A DNA stretch of 64,000 bases from Nonomuraea indica. Lineage in GTDB: Bacteria > Actinomycetota > Actinomycetes > Streptosporangiales > Streptosporangiaceae. A model generated the notes under the pieces. The model made no database searches, had not been told where the DNA came from, and saw only the letters and a list, made by a program, of their open reading frames with translations. Numbering within the stretch: the first letter of the stretch is position 1; each line of letters begins with the position of its first letter. Below are positions 43,621 to 62,231 of the stretch, in pieces. Where the stretch lies: the NCBI RefSeq assembly GCF_002850745.1, contig NZ_PJOK01000049.1, positions 124,001 to 188,000 of the forward strand, in the 5' to 3' direction. The position numbers and the translations under genes are program-made.

Positions 43621-47955
<4,335 letters not shown>

Positions 47956-56365: not shown

Positions 56366-56698
56366 TCAGTGAGCCGCTTCGTACTTCTCGACGACGGTGG
56401 AGGCGATACGGCCCCGCTCGCTCACGGGCAGGCCGTGAGCCTTGGCCCACTGACGGATCTCCGAGCTCTTCTCGCGGCTCATCGCACGCTGCCCGCCACG
56501 CCCCTTCTTCCGCGCGGACACGGCGCCGGCCCGGCGGGCGTGCTGCACGAAAGGCGAGAGGGCGTCCCTGAGCTTCTTGGCGTTAAGGTCGCTGAGGTCA
56601 ATCTCATAGGAGGCGCCGTCAATAGCGAAGCTGACCGTCTCATTGGCCTCGCCACCATCGAGGTCATCGATGAGAATCTCCTGGATCTGCTTGGCCAT
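56366..56698 (-). CDS. lsr2: Lsr2 nucleoid-associated xenogeneic silencer
   Basis: 110 residues. MAKQIQEILIDDLDGGEANE is the N-terminal oligomer segment, YEIDLSDLNAKKLRDALSPF the dimer part, and IRQWAKAHGLPVSERGRIAS the C-terminal domain whose RGR hook binds the minor groove of AT-rich DNA. Lsr2 silences horizontally acquired and specialised-metabolite genes. AAAGGA lies 8 nt before the ATG at 56698. Filamentous actinomycetes often have a second paralogue elsewhere. Confidence 0.96.
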   Translation of the reverse strand: MAKQIQEILIDDLDGGEANETVSFAIDGASYEIDLSDLNAKKLRDALSPFVQHARRAGAVSARKKGRGGQRAMSREKSSEIRQWAKAHGLPVSERGRIASTVVEKYEAAH

Positions 56699-57212: not shown

Positions 57213-57695
57213 TCAACGAAGATCTTTGACGACCAGCGTTCCGGCAAGCCTGTCATGGGGCCCACGCTGCAGCGGCTTGTCGATCAAGATGAGCATCCCG
57301 ACCGCGAAGGCGAAGATTCCGGCCAGCACATTGACGCCCGGAATGCCCATCAGCATGGCAGGTCCCGGATACACAAGCGAGCGTTTCAGCAGAGCCGACC
57401 GCGGAACGTCGTCCGGCACGACGCGAATCTTCATGATCGCCTTGCCGAACGTGCGCCCGTCCCGGGAAACGGCGTACCAGTCGTAGCCGGCATAACCCAG
57501 CCCCGCGAGCAGCCAGGCGAACATGCCCGGCAACCGGCCGTGGAAGACGTCCAGGACCCCTACAGTCCGGAAGACCCCCCACAGCGTGATGAACAGAATG
57601 TAATAGAAGACTCCGAAGACCAGGCCCTCAATGAGCCGCGCGGCAAGCCGTTCCCACCATTCCGCGGGCACCGCGCCCGCCGGCGTCCCGGCCAT
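57213..57695 (-). CDS. RDD family membrane protein (short paralogue)
   Basis: 160 residues. WWERLAARLIEGLVFGVFYY has the RDD-type Arg and a position-shifted acidic residue (LIEG in place of IID), followed by three hydrophobic segments (LWGVFRTVGVL; MFAWLLAGLGYAGYDW; GIFAFAVGMLILI) and the family end DRLAGTLVVKDLR. Some RDD proteins are Na+/H+ exchangers, but most are uncharacterised. It lacks the Gln-rich N-terminus of the adjacent paralogue. Same strand, 110 bp downstream of it, with a terminator between. Confidence 0.86.
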   Translation of the reverse strand: MAGTPAGAVPAEWWERLAARLIEGLVFGVFYYILFITLWGVFRTVGVLDVFHGRLPGMFAWLLAGLGYAGYDWYAVSRDGRTFGKAIMKIRVVPDDVPRSALLKRSLVYPGPAMLMGIPGVNVLAGIFAFAVGMLILIDKPLQRGPHDRLAGTLVVKDLR

Positions 57696-57759
57696 AACCT
57701 CACCCCGCCCATCGGCGTACCCGGCAGTCTCCCATTTTGGTACGGCCCCGGTACACAAA

Positions 57760-57788
57760 ACAGAGGCCGGCCAGCAGCCGACCTCTGT
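57760..57788 (-). terminator. rho-independent terminator after the repeat-rich RDD gene
   Basis: ACAGAGGCCGGC pairs with GCCGACCTCTGT (one mismatch), loop of 5; on the minus strand the stem is followed by TTTTGTG. It lies 17 bp after the stop at 57806. Confidence 0.82.
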
Positions 57789-57805
57789 CCGGTGCCCCGG
57801 AGGGC

Positions 57806-60112
57806 TTACTTGACCTTCACCACCACCGTTCCGCCGGCCTTGTCGGCGAAGGTCTGCTGCAGCGGCTTGTCCCAGAGCTGGGAGGCGCCGTTGAGGGCCA
57901 CGACCAGCCAGGCGAGCAACGTCGCGAGGAAGGTGACGGGCAGCGCGGCCAGGAGGTAACCGCCCCACGTCACACCGGCCCGCTTGAGCGCCACGTCGGT
58001 GGCCAGGCCACCGTCCAGCATCGGCCCGCCGACAGGGACGATCTTGATGCCCATGACCATCTTGCCGACGGTCTGCCCCTTGGCCTTCGTCATGAAGAAC
58101 TCGTAGGCGATGTAGATGGCCGTGAGCACCAGCGCCACCAGGATCCCGACGAGGAAGACACTCATGCCGGACGTGGGCCCGCTGTCGTAGTTGTAGGTGG
58201 CGACCAAGAGACCCGTGAAGATCGCTGTCACCACGAAGGTCACCACGCCGAAGATGACGCCGTCGATGATGCGCGCCACCAGCCGCTGCCACCACTCGGC
58301 CAGCGGCGCGGGAGCGCCGGGAGGCTGCACGCCCACCGGCTTCCCGTACGCCTGGCCGTAGGCGGGCTGCCCGTAACCCTGCTGCCCGTACTGGCCCGGC
58401 TGGCCGTAGCCGGGCTGCCCGTAGCCCTGCTGGGGCTGCTGCCCGTACTGGGGCTGCTGGCCGTACTGCTGACCCGACGGGTCCTGCTGACCGTAACCGG
58501 GCTGGCCGTACTGCTGACCGGACGGGTCCTGCTGACCGTAGCCCGGCTGGCCGTACTGCTGACCCGACGGGTCCTGCTGACCGTAGCCCGGCTGGCCGTA
58601 CTGCTGACCCGACGGGTCCTGCTGACCGTAGCCCGGCTGGCCGTACTGCTGACCCGACGGGTCCTGCTGACCGTAGCCCGGCTGGCCGTACTGCTGACCC
58701 GACGGGTCCTGCTGACCGTAGCCCGGCTGGCCGTACTGCTGACCCGACGGGTCCTGCTGACCGTAGCCCGGCTGGCCGTACTGCTGACCCGACGGGTCCT
58801 GCTGACCGTAGCCCGGCTGGCCGTACTGCTGACCCGACGGGTCCTGCTGACCGTAGCCCGGCTGGCCGTACTGCTGACCCGACGGGTCCTGCTGACCGTA
58901 GCCCGGCTGGCCGTACTGCTGACCCGACGGGTCCTGCTGACCGTAGCCCGGCTGGCCGTACTGCTGACCCGACGGGTCCTGCTGACCGTAGCCCGGCTGG
59001 CCGTACTGCTGACCCGACGGGTCCTGCTGACCGTAGCCCGGCTGGCCGTACTGCTGACCCGACGGGTCCTGCTGACCGTAGCCCGGCTGGCCGTACTGCT
59101 GACCCGACGGGTCCTGCTGACCGTAGCCCGGCTGGCCGTACTGCTGACCCGACGGGTCCTGCTGACCGTAGCCCGGCTGGCCGTACTGCTGACCCGACGG
59201 GTCCTGCTGACCGTAGCCCGGCTGGCCGTACTGCTGACCCGACGGGTCCTGCTGACCGTAGCCCGGCTGGCCGTACTGCTGACCCGACGGGTCCTGCTGA
59301 CCGTAGCCCGGCTGGCCGTACTGCTGACCCGACGGGTCCTGCTGACCGTAGCCCGGCTGGCCGTACTGCTGACCCGACGGGTCCTGCTGACCGTAGCCCG
59401 GCTGGCCGTACTGCTGACCCGAAGGCGGCTGCTGGCCGTAACCGGGCTGCCCGTACTGCTGGCCCGAAGGCGGCTGCTGGCCGTAGCCGGGCTGGCCCTG
59501 CTGGCCGCCGTAGCTCGGCTGGCCGTAGTCGGGCTGCGAACCGGGCTGCTGACCGTACTGGGGCTGCTGGCCGTAGCCGGGCTGGCCGTACTGCTGGCCG
59601 GAGGACGGCTGCCCGTACTGCTGGCCGGAGGGGTCCTGCTGGCCGTAGCCCGGCTGGGACTGCGCCTGCTGGCCGTAGCCGGGCTGACCGTACTGCTGAC
59701 CGGGCTGACCGTAGTCGGGTTGGCCGTAGCCGGGCTGCGAACCGGGCTGCTGACCATACTGCGACTGCTGGCCGTAGCCCTGCTGGCCGTAGCCCTGCTG
59801 CCCGTACTGCTGGCCGGAGGGGTCCTGCTGGCCGTAGCCGGGCTGCGGCTGGCCCTGCTGGCCGTAGCCGGGCTGACCGTACTGCTGGCCGGGCTGACCG
59901 TACTGGGGCTGCGCCTGGCCGTAGCCGGGCTGGGACTGAGCCTGCTGACCGTAGCCGGGCTGGGCGTAGTCGTCGGCCCGGTAGCCCACGATCGTCGCGT
60001 CGGGGTCGGGCTCGCCGTGGGAGCGGTTGGGGTTGTGCTGTCCGTAGGGAGGAGACCCGGGAGCGTGCTCGCCGGAATCGTCCTGTGGATACGGCGGCTG
60101 TCCGGTGCTCAC
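57806..60112 (-). CDS. RDD family membrane protein with long prion-like Q/G/Y/P repeat domain
   Basis: 768 residues. About the first 600 are low-complexity Gln/Gly/Tyr/Pro. Of these, 21 tandem copies of a 15-residue unit ([15 protein letters not shown] register) come from a 45-bp DNA repeat. The last 150 residues are an RDD domain: [20 protein letters not shown] with the R-x-x-D signature, several transmembrane segments, and [20 protein letters not shown]. The N-terminus has acidic and Pro-rich stretches ([16 protein letters not shown]). RDD proteins with Gln/Pro-rich cytosolic N-termini are common in actinobacteria, but this repeat array is extreme. GTG at 60112 with GAGG 7 nt upstream. Confidence 0.9.
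58471..59415 (-). repeat. 21 tandem copies of a 45-bp coding repeat
   Basis: The unit as read on the plus strand begins GACCCGACGGGTCCTGCTGA and ends GGCCGTACTGCT; 945 bp make exactly 21 units, and most units are identical base for base. Two diverged units and looser relatives continue to about 59960. Length equals 15 codons, so copy-number change never breaks the frame. Confidence 0.95.
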
Positions 60113-60197
60113 CGTGTCACCTCGCTTCGCGTGCGCATGTGGCACGTGTCAGGACACATGCCTGTGCCGCCCAACGTATCGACATAGGTATCAACAA

Positions 60198-60767
60198 TCA
60201 CCTTTCCAGTCGGTCAAGGTCTGTGTCACCCGATGTCAGATGGAGCAGCATGCGGGTGTTGCCCAGGGTGTTCGGCTTGACGTGTTCGAGATCGAGGAAC
60301 TCGGCCACGCCCTCGTCGTACGAGGCCAGCAGCTCGGCGTAGACCTCGGGTGAGACGGGGGTGCCCTGAATGGGACGGAACCCGTGCCTGGCGAAGAAGT
60401 CGACCTCGAAAGTCAGGCAGAAAACCCGCCTGAGCCCCAGATCCCTCGCCGTGCGAATCAACGCGGAGACGATCCGGTGCCCGATCCCCAGCCCCCGGGA
60501 CGCGGGGTCCACGGCGACCGTGCGGATCTCGGCCAGATCCTCCCAGAGAACGTGCAGCGCGCCACATCCGACGACTTGCCCGCCCCGCTCGGCCACCCAG
60601 AACTCCTGGATGTCCTCGTACAGCGTGACGGTGGCCTTCTCCAGCAGGCGTTGGCCCGCACCGGCGTAGGTGTCGACCAGGCGCCTGATCGTCCTGACAT
60701 CGGACGTGCGGGCACGCCGCACCACGACCTCGGTGTCAGGGACTGTCACTGCGGCGACCTGCTCCAT
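60198..60767 (-). CDS. argA: amino-acid N-acetyltransferase (N-acetylglutamate synthase, short actinobacterial type)
   Basis: 189 residues of GNAT fold: VVVRRARTSDVRTIRRLVDT, LLEKATVTLYEDIQEFWVAE, GCGALHVLWEDLAEIRTVAV, the acetyl-CoA loop RGLGIGHRIV and FFARHGFRPI. It resembles the stand-alone acetyltransferase that makes N-acetylglutamate for arginine synthesis in mycobacteria and streptomycetes, without the kinase-like domain of classical ArgA. ATG at 60767. No other arg genes are nearby. Confidence 0.92.
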   Translation of the reverse strand: MEQVAAVTVPDTEVVVRRARTSDVRTIRRLVDTYAGAGQRLLEKATVTLYEDIQEFWVAERGGQVVGCGALHVLWEDLAEIRTVAVDPASRGLGIGHRIVSALIRTARDLGLRRVFCLTFEVDFFARHGFRPIQGTPVSPEVYAELLASYDEGVAEFLDLEHVKPNTLGNTRMLLHLTSGDTDLDRLER

Positions 60768-61177: not shown

Positions 61178-61187
61178 GAGCCGATTG

Positions 61188-62231
61188 GTGAAGCGTACGC
61201 GCGGTCGCGAGAGGACCTCAGCGGGCACACACGCCCGCCCTCCGCAACAGACCGGCCCGCGCCGTCTCGCCCTTCTCGGCACCGCCCTCGTCGCCGCCAC
61301 CGCTCTGTTCGCCGGCGCCACCCCTGCCGCGGCCGACCCCGAGCCGTCCCTGAACTCGCTCGCCAAGCAGGTCGAGCAGATGCACGTGGACATCGAGAAG
61401 CTGGCCGAGCAGTACAACGCCCAGCGGGAGAAGCTCAAGTCCGCCAAGAAGACGGCCGAGGCCGCCAGGAAGACGCTGGCCGCCAGCGAGGCCGACCTGG
61501 CGGCCAAGCGCGCCAAGGCCGCCCAGATGGTCGAGAGCCAGTACATCTCCGGCACCATGGGGCGGGCCCTGCCCTTCATCAGCTCCAGCGACCCCGAGCG
61601 GTTCCTCGACCACGCCGCCACCTCGTACGCGCTGGCCCAGCAGCAGAGCGAGCAGCTCAAGCAGGTCCTCGACGCCATGGAGTCGGCCAGGCGGGCCAGG
61701 GACGAGGCCGGTGCCCGCATGGCGGAGGTCAGCAAGCTCGTCGCCGACCTCGGCGCCAAGCGCGACAAGATCGTGACGATGGTCGCCAAGGTCGAGAGCA
61801 ACCTCTACCGGCGCGCGGTCGGCGAGGCCGGCCGGCCGGGCACCAGGGCCACGCGGGTCAGCCTGCCCGTGATCGGCTCCGGCAAGGCCGCCGAGGCCGC
61901 CCGCTGGGCGCTCACGCAGCAGCTCAAGCCGTACGTCTGGGGCGCGGAGGGCCCGAGCTCCTACGACTGCTCGGGCCTGGTCATGGCGGCCTACCAGCGG
62001 GTCGGCATCTCGCTGCCGCACTACACCGGCAGCCAGTGGACCTCCGGCCGGCACATCTCCAAGGAGGAGCTGCGCGCCGGCGACCTGGTGTTCTTCTACA
62101 ACGACCTGCACCACGTCGGCATCTACATCGGCGGCGGGCTGATGGTCCACGCGCCGCGCACGGGTGACGTGGTGCGCGTGGCCTCGATCGCCCGGCGCCC
62201 GTACGCGGGAGCCGTCCGCATCGCCGACTGA
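61188..62231 (+). CDS. secreted NlpC/P60 endopeptidase with coiled-coil domain
   Basis: 347 residues. Signal peptide with a long charged n-region, hydrophobic LALLGTALVAATALFAGA, cleavage near AAADP. About 55-205 is an antiparallel coiled coil (LNSLAKQVEQMHVDIEKLAE), as in RipA-type proteins. The NlpC/P60 domain (about 228-347) has YDCSGLVMAAYQ (Cys), HHVGIYIGGG (His) and HAPRTGDVV. It should cut D-Glu-mDAP bonds in peptidoglycan during growth or division. GTG at 61188 with GAGGAG 7 nt upstream; a TTG directly before it is less likely. Under the c-di-AMP riboswitch. Confidence 0.95.
   Translation: MKRTRGRERTSAGTHARPPQQTGPRRLALLGTALVAATALFAGATPAAADPEPSLNSLAKQVEQMHVDIEKLAEQYNAQREKLKSAKKTAEAARKTLAASEADLAAKRAKAAQMVESQYISGTMGRALPFISSSDPERFLDHAATSYALAQQQSEQLKQVLDAMESARRARDEAGARMAEVSKLVADLGAKRDKIVTMVAKVESNLYRRAVGEAGRPGTRATRVSLPVIGSGKAAEAARWALTQQLKPYVWGAEGPSSYDCSGLVMAAYQRVGISLPHYTGSQWTSGRHISKEELRAGDLVFFYNDLHHVGIYIGGGLMVHAPRTGDVVRVASIARRPYAGAVRIAD

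Follow-up and report, generated by a model that had tools for sequence, protein, structure and literature searches.

What does a bacterial membrane protein gain from a tail of several hundred residues dominated by glutamine, glycine, proline, and tyrosine, and how did part of that tail come to be encoded by nearly identical repeats? This question is raised by a gene of Nonomuraea indica within a 64,000-nucleotide stretch of DNA that was analyzed here as a whole ("the window"). As a preferred reading, to which we give about an even chance, we propose that the tail works as a multivalent chain of aromatic stickers and gathers membrane proteins into clusters on the inner face of the membrane, with a threonine motif as a handle, and that it was recently lengthened in frame.

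Gene, product, and predicted topology

The gene lies at positions 57806-60112 on the minus strand, where an earlier note on this DNA had placed it, and its 768-aa product consists of a 605-aa tail followed by an RDD domain. The frame ends at 57806, and the likely start codon is a GTG at 60112, with a GAGGTGACAC stretch just before it. The same note had called the product an RDD membrane protein, and Pfam agreed, matching RDD (PF06271) to the C-terminal part (residues 616-769 of a 779-aa frame that includes codons before the start) at E 2.4e-18 and 67.2 bits vs a cut-off of 24.1. NCBIfam returned no family at E 0.01 for this protein or for the second RDD protein encoded directly downstream. Within the domain, R9, D12, D143, and D152 were invariant in 21/21 aligned domains. 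The features discussed below are as follows:

57806..60112, minus strand: RDD-family membrane protein with a long N-terminal low-complexity tail, 768 aa (open reading frame and Pfam)
58298..60112, minus strand: low-complexity tail, 605 aa (composition)
58521..59422, minus strand: tandem array of 45-bp units, exact over 902 bp, with 20 copies of the 15-aa unit (Tandem Repeats Finder and sequence inspection)
60083..60112, minus strand: conserved N-terminus, 10 residues (V and GQPPY invariant in 74/74 proteins)
59978..60007, minus strand: threonine motif, 10 residues, family form DP[DE]xT[IVM][VIM] (in 74/74 compared proteins)
57806..58297, minus strand: RDD membrane domain including the stop codon (Pfam and AlphaFold2 model with four long helices)
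57213..57695, minus strand: further RDD gene, next one downstream, lacking a tail of this type (Pfam and locus comparison)
56366..56698, minus strand: lsr2, conserved neighbor (Pfam; matched in 79/80 named loci)
60198..60767, minus strand: GNAT amino-acid N-acetyltransferase, conserved upstream neighbor (matched in 77/80 named loci)
61185..62231, plus strand: NlpC/P60 cell-wall hydrolase, diverging conserved neighbor (Pfam; matched in 77/80 named loci)

An AlphaFold2 model of the RDD domain (pLDDT 84.9) contains four long helices and two short strands, and hydropathy analysis finds three segments, the last one long. Counts of K+R over D+E are 2/2 before TM1, 0/1 between TM1 and TM2, and 6/3 after TM2, a charge pattern that under the positive-inside rule would place the N-terminal side, and with it the tail, in the cytoplasm. 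A long antisense frame (57737-60187, 816 aa) was set aside, as it is open because the GC-rich repeat unit lacks stops in several frames. Elsewhere in the window, a separate tandem repeat with a period of 276 bp (6.0 copies, 81% matches) spans 43855-45515.

A 45-bp array within the tail

Tandem Repeats Finder reported a period of 45, 25.4 copies, and 95% matches over 58456-59596, with exact 45-bp periodicity extending over 902 bp (58521-59422; 20.04 units). The earlier note had counted 21 identical repeats in perfect periodicity over 945 bp: the near-identical array was found, but it holds 20 copies of the 15-aa unit, 19 of them the same in DNA and one off at 3 of 45 bases, and the exact stretch is shorter than the note had claimed. 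In 73 orthologues with a comparable composition, exact tandem stretches peaked at 243 bp, and the median of the longest one per gene was 35 bp (values under the reporting limit set to 0); the window's array exceeds what such a composition gives.

We consider it highly improbable that the copy number was inflated or created by the assembler. The genome is a draft in 58 contigs, and 4 of 80 named relatives break within the tail, two at contig ends (L013, L062) and two at N gaps (L043, L070). The window's array, however, sits within a 308,653-bp contig, the reading frame is preserved across it, and the unit copies that flank it on both sides are degenerate, with 4 and 9 differing bases at one end and 3 and 8 at the other. 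Short-read assemblers, moreover, tend to collapse or shorten repeat arrays more often than they inflate them. The RDD gene L147, from another family, is likewise broken in the tail region, by N's. Since assemblies end or gap inside the tail, longer arrays in other species may have been lost from draft genomes.

The earlier note had also proposed a recent expansion, a view strengthened by the closest relative examined (L087), whose RDD domain is 80% identical to the window's. There, the array unit occurs twice in tandem and once apart, at 5–6 of 45 bases from the window's unit, and exact tandem stretches stay below the reporting limit, so that the expansion most likely postdates the split between the two. 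In-frame slippage or unequal recombination could then have taken one 45-bp unit to about 20 copies, roughly doubling both the length of the tail and its number of tyrosines (78 vs an orthologue median of 36) with its character unchanged. Phase variation via repeat number was ruled out, because a 45-bp unit preserves the frame.

Orthologues and conserved gene order

Using collections with one genome per species, the RDD domain query found a match in 54/54 genomes of the genus Nonomuraea, the window's included. The earlier note had named orthologues lacking any such domain as a finding that would refute it; in fact, a tail was present in 73/73 compared orthologues, with a length of 212–370 aa (median 289) vs 605 in the window's protein, a twofold outlier because of the array. 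Likewise, open frames in the 12 genus genomes of ≤5 contigs measured 459–536 aa vs 780 in the window, both figures including codons before the start. The tail is an old feature of the protein, and only some 300 extra residues in it are new.

The 74 proteins compared here comprise 72 named loci, L087, and the window's protein. Left out were two loci at contig ends (L013, L062), two with N gaps (L043, L070), a paralogue with 47 codons before the domain (L084), and three loci (L077, L081, L083) that carry the tail and threonine motif but did not match the start pattern used; of the 30 loci from the genus search, only L087 entered the set.

Gene order around the tail-bearing gene is kept across the 80 named loci: GNAT, NlpC/P60, and ClpC were each matched in 77, Lsr2 in 79, and the second RDD gene in 68. 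L084, a paralogue located at another site of its genome, accounts for the single locus without Lsr2; GNAT was absent there and at the two contig ends (L013, L062), and the second RDD gene was absent there and from 11 loci that belong to other genera. We read the protein as vertically inherited within Nonomuraea and related genera of Streptosporangiaceae.

A class-wide search gave a match in 26/148 genomes at E 1e-15. Among the ten same-family or same-genus genomes listed besides the window's, four (G090, G124, G152, G163) had no match at this threshold, and the tail of G174 was Pro/Gly-rich and, by eye, without the threonine motif, so this type of tail is not universal in the family. RDD proteins listed from outside the family had mostly short or Pro/Gly-rich N-terminal parts. 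Two loci from one genus in another family of the class (L145, L147, the latter with N's) encode RDD proteins with YGQ-rich tails, in whose displayed parts no threonine motif was seen by eye. The second RDD gene of Nonomuraea, also by eye, carries no Pro/Tyr/Gly-rich N-terminal tail; that of several loci in genera outside Nonomuraea (L050, L051, L058, L077, and others) is Pro/Tyr/Gly-rich N-terminally as well.

Regular tyrosines in a loosely conserved tail

The window's tail is composed of 31% Q, 25% G, 14.5% P, and 13% Y, with Q+N+G+Y+S reaching 75.7%, in agreement with the Q/G/Y/P domain described in the earlier note. It carries 2 Thr and only 3 K/R at a net charge of -30, and 96% of its tyrosines have a glycine directly after them. 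Features of prion-like domains and aromatic stickers are therefore present, namely a Q/N/G/Y/S-rich, repetitive sequence with regularly spaced aromatics, and the condensate idea raised by the earlier note is plausible and gains support from the comparison with orthologues.

Across the compared proteins, tyrosine made up 12.6% of the tail with an SD of 0.64, vs 1.95 expected in random draws. Relative to such draws, Gln, Pro, Ala, and Ser spread wider, and Gly and Asp slightly narrower. Tyrosine number tracked tail length (r = 0.95, window excluded). Spacing was regular as well: in five proteins, the coefficient of variation (CV) of tyrosine spacing was 0.39–0.59 vs shuffle means of 0.88–0.91, falling below all 500 shuffles in four of the five, the window's included, and in the fifth (L071; 0.59) just over the lowest shuffle (0.55). 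Tyrosines occur mostly in xYGQ, mainly every 5–10 residues, and among 2682 tyrosines the context was GYGQ for 38% and QYGQ for 20%. Position-wise conservation of Tyr, Gln, and Gly was 0.916, 0.907, and 0.895, respectively, or 0.970, 0.932, and 0.929 with protein-guided alignment (ten pairs). Since tyrosine is barely more conserved than glutamine or glycine, its regularity is one of density and spacing more than of single positions, and its low spread is partly due to shared ancestry and regular spacing.

The tail also shows signs of purifying selection at the level of codons. Protein-guided dN/dS in 11 close pairs was 0.08–0.39 for the tail and 0.31–0.93 for the RDD domain, and smaller in the tail in 10/11 pairs, although the tail value is biased low because repeat units may align to non-orthologous copies, and tail dS exceeds RDD dS. 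When the DNA of 14 pairs was aligned blind to frame, substitutions in the tail favored third codon positions (270/317/726 at positions 1/2/3), with 202/128/268 in the RDD domain. Every tail gap was a multiple of 3 in 13 of these 14 pairs; in the remaining one, the window and L087, 2 of 14 gaps were not, one of them spanning 827 bases and including most of the array. Both sets of pairs are the closest by RDD DNA identity and share species, and are therefore not independent.

An alternative is that the tail serves as an entropic spacer or brush, for which only hydrophilicity, lack of structure, and absence of lysine matter, and that replication slippage in repetitive, GC-rich DNA let the array drift neutrally in length. 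The length variation among orthologues fits this alternative, as do the 4–18 gaps per pair among the 14 close pairs, the absence of lysine from 68/74 tails, and the fact that the array adds nothing new in kind. However, tyrosine content and spacing are far steadier than the content of proline (6–20% across tails) or alanine (2–11%), and the xYGQ context is preserved. Aromatics are, moreover, unneeded for a brush, yet tryptophan is frequent beside tyrosine in a DUF3352 tail of the same kind (L187). We regard a brush as possible but rather unlikely.

An invariant threonine motif near the N-terminus

Within this otherwise loose tail sequence, two short segments stand out. The first V and GQPPY were invariant in 74/74 proteins, one of which has an extra Pro ahead of GQPPY, and the motif DP[DE]xT[IVM][VIM] was likewise found in 74/74. 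A relaxed scan detected the motif in 77/80 named loci, the misses being two truncated contigs and one paralogue. In the window's genome, DP[DE]xT[IVM]V occurs at two places, the RDD gene and a frame that by eye looks unrelated.

This constancy raises the possibility that the tail is chiefly a docking platform, in which the phosphorylated threonine motif recruits an FHA protein and the repeats provide reach and avidity for a folded partner, not self-association. Such docking would fit the presence of the motif in every compared protein, the scarcity of threonine in the window's tail, the 7 FHA matches in the genome, and a related motif that opens the DUF3352 protein (see below). Against it, no phosphorylation data were found for the motif, no usable phosphorylation consensus was found in excerpts of two phosphoproteome papers (PMC4389566, PMC4322841), and docking alone does not explain the constant tyrosine density. 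We therefore consider docking as the chief role unlikely, and a kinase or FHA role of the motif is a guess by analogy.

Other membrane proteins with YGQ tails

A DNA pattern for YGQ-xx-YGQ occurred at 42 places genome-wide, all in four genes, vs 0 for a reversed-pattern control. The RDD gene holds 31 of these places, and the remainder fall in genes for DUF4190, DUF3352, and DUF2510 proteins. All four encode predicted membrane proteins with unrelated anchors. In the DUF3352 and DUF2510 proteins, the one TM helix detected has basic residues ahead of it, pointing to cytoplasmic tails; the topology of the DUF4190 protein is ambiguous. A protein search with six array units found the RDD gene alone in the genome, and a DNA search found four further genes and one 40-base match on contig 14. 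YGQ/FGQ-rich tails with predicted TM segments were observed in L152, L153, L154, and L155 (DUF3352, DUF4190, DUF2510, and no Pfam family); in the last, the TM segments lie at the N-terminus and the YGQ tail, which is looser, at the C-terminus.

By eye, 12/21 DUF3352 homologues, the one from the window's genome included, carry [DN]P[DQS][RQ]T near the start, followed in 10 of the 12 by [YH]R at +3/+4. The Sphaerisporangium RDD motif, DPEVTVVHR, has the same spacing. The motif is absent from one close homologue and from eight distant ones, of which one is truncated by the end of its locus. A pattern with the DUF3352 spacing matched one place in the genome (the DUF3352 gene) vs three for the reversed control, and because of this is not significant alone. 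Among L186-L198, most DUF3352 proteins have the N-terminal [DN]P[DQS][RQ]T, often then YR, similar to the RDD protein's motif. The DUF3352 tail in which tryptophan accompanies tyrosine (L187) comes from another Nonomuraea.

A candidate clustering mechanism

Under the sticker reading, a disordered cytoplasmic tail on an RDD anchor would behave as a multivalent chain of aromatic stickers, and these tails would hold copies of the RDD protein together in clusters at the inner membrane face, which further membrane proteins with tails of this kind might join. Close to the N-terminus, the invariant threonine motif would serve as a regulated handle, either a Ser/Thr-kinase target or a docking site. 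The net charge of the window's tail may, through repulsion, oppose such clustering, and since there are so few K/R at this charge, Arg-Tyr contacts are unavailable; both the charge and the scarcity of arginine count against strong cohesion.

The gene offers a test of the "stickers and spacers" idea in bacteria: its tyrosine density stays constant as length drifts among some 70 species, and in one strain the chain has doubled through near-identical units. Through this natural doubling, the effect of repeat number on clustering at the membrane can be tested directly. YGQ tails on unrelated membrane proteins of one genome, two of which have similar threonine motifs, also point to a possible assembly on the cytoplasmic membrane face in actinobacteria, which we did not find described in the literature searched.

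Comparison with known systems

The closest parallel for the tail is the YG domain of PEX13, which, as described in the relevant passages of PMC9795577, forms hydrogels dependent on its tyrosines, varies in sequence between species, and needs a number of tyrosines, not exact places, for function. PEX13 resembles the window's protein in having an unstructured Tyr/Gly-rich N-terminal tail on a membrane protein, and differs in being eukaryotic, lining an import conduit, and having another anchor; no homology is claimed. The bacterial tail, in contrast to that of PEX13, is Gln-rich and acidic. By analogy, it would cohere through its tyrosines as the YG domain does. For the threonine motif, a precedent is Rv1747, an ABC transporter of M. 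tuberculosis whose condensation is, in the portions of PMC11326607 and PMC9312465 that concern it, controlled by Ser/Thr phosphorylation. Like the RDD protein as we read it, Rv1747 is an actinobacterial membrane protein with a disordered cytoplasmic part, and clustering of the RDD protein may similarly switch at the threonine. However, Rv1747 carries two FHA domains with a disordered linker between them, whereas Pfam detects no FHA domain in the tail-bearing RDD protein.

Other RDD proteins offer partial likenesses. The mycobacterial proline-rich antigen Pra (MAP_1025, annotated as "RDD family protein") is an actinobacterial RDD membrane protein that we liken to the window's by description, being called proline-rich; the relevant part of PMC6313528 gives a size of 25 kDa and an antibody epitope, HPGGQQP, at residues 28-34. 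SppI of B. subtilis, which inhibits the SppA protease, and a Halobacillus RDD antiporter, which exchanges Na+ (Li+, K+) for H+, have the RDD membrane domain in common with the window's protein, and no tail of the YGQ kind is mentioned in the passages of PMC7568657 devoted to them.

With regard to structure, the solved fold most like both RDD models, among those compared, is that of the PEX2/PEX10/PEX12 membrane domains (PDB 7t92). The human RDD protein FAM8A1, for its part, sits in the HRD1 ligase complex. For the tail-bearing protein, the best three Foldseek matches in the PDB were the three chains of 7t92 (E 0.017–0.24); for the second RDD gene (57213-57695; pLDDT 80.4), the same three chains came first (E 0.055–0.88). 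VIA-align against 7t92 gave Z 10.9 over 138 residues at 3.6 Å (next 4.6) and Z 10.1 over 127 residues at 3.4 Å (next 4.5), respectively, on a scale where helical bundles can score Z about 13 without kinship, so that a match at Z 10–11 may reflect only a common helical arrangement. A sequence search of the PDB yielded three weak antibody rows and no relative, there is no sequence match to PEX2/PEX10/PEX12, Pfam finds no RING finger in the RDD protein, and the term RDD is absent from the main text of PMC9279156 and PMC13015374.

A bolder reading would combine these likenesses: the RDD domain as a bacterial relative of the PEX2/PEX10/PEX12 fold bearing a PEX13-like YG tail, with several YGQ proteins sharing one phase at the inner face, the threonine motif as its switch, and tail length set by in-frame repeat number. 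We consider this very unlikely. If true, it would be a bacterial counterpart of both halves of peroxisomal import, i.e., a cohesive YG meshwork on a Pex-like membrane domain, and the RDD/PEX fold match, should it hold, would bear on the origin of the peroxisomal channel.
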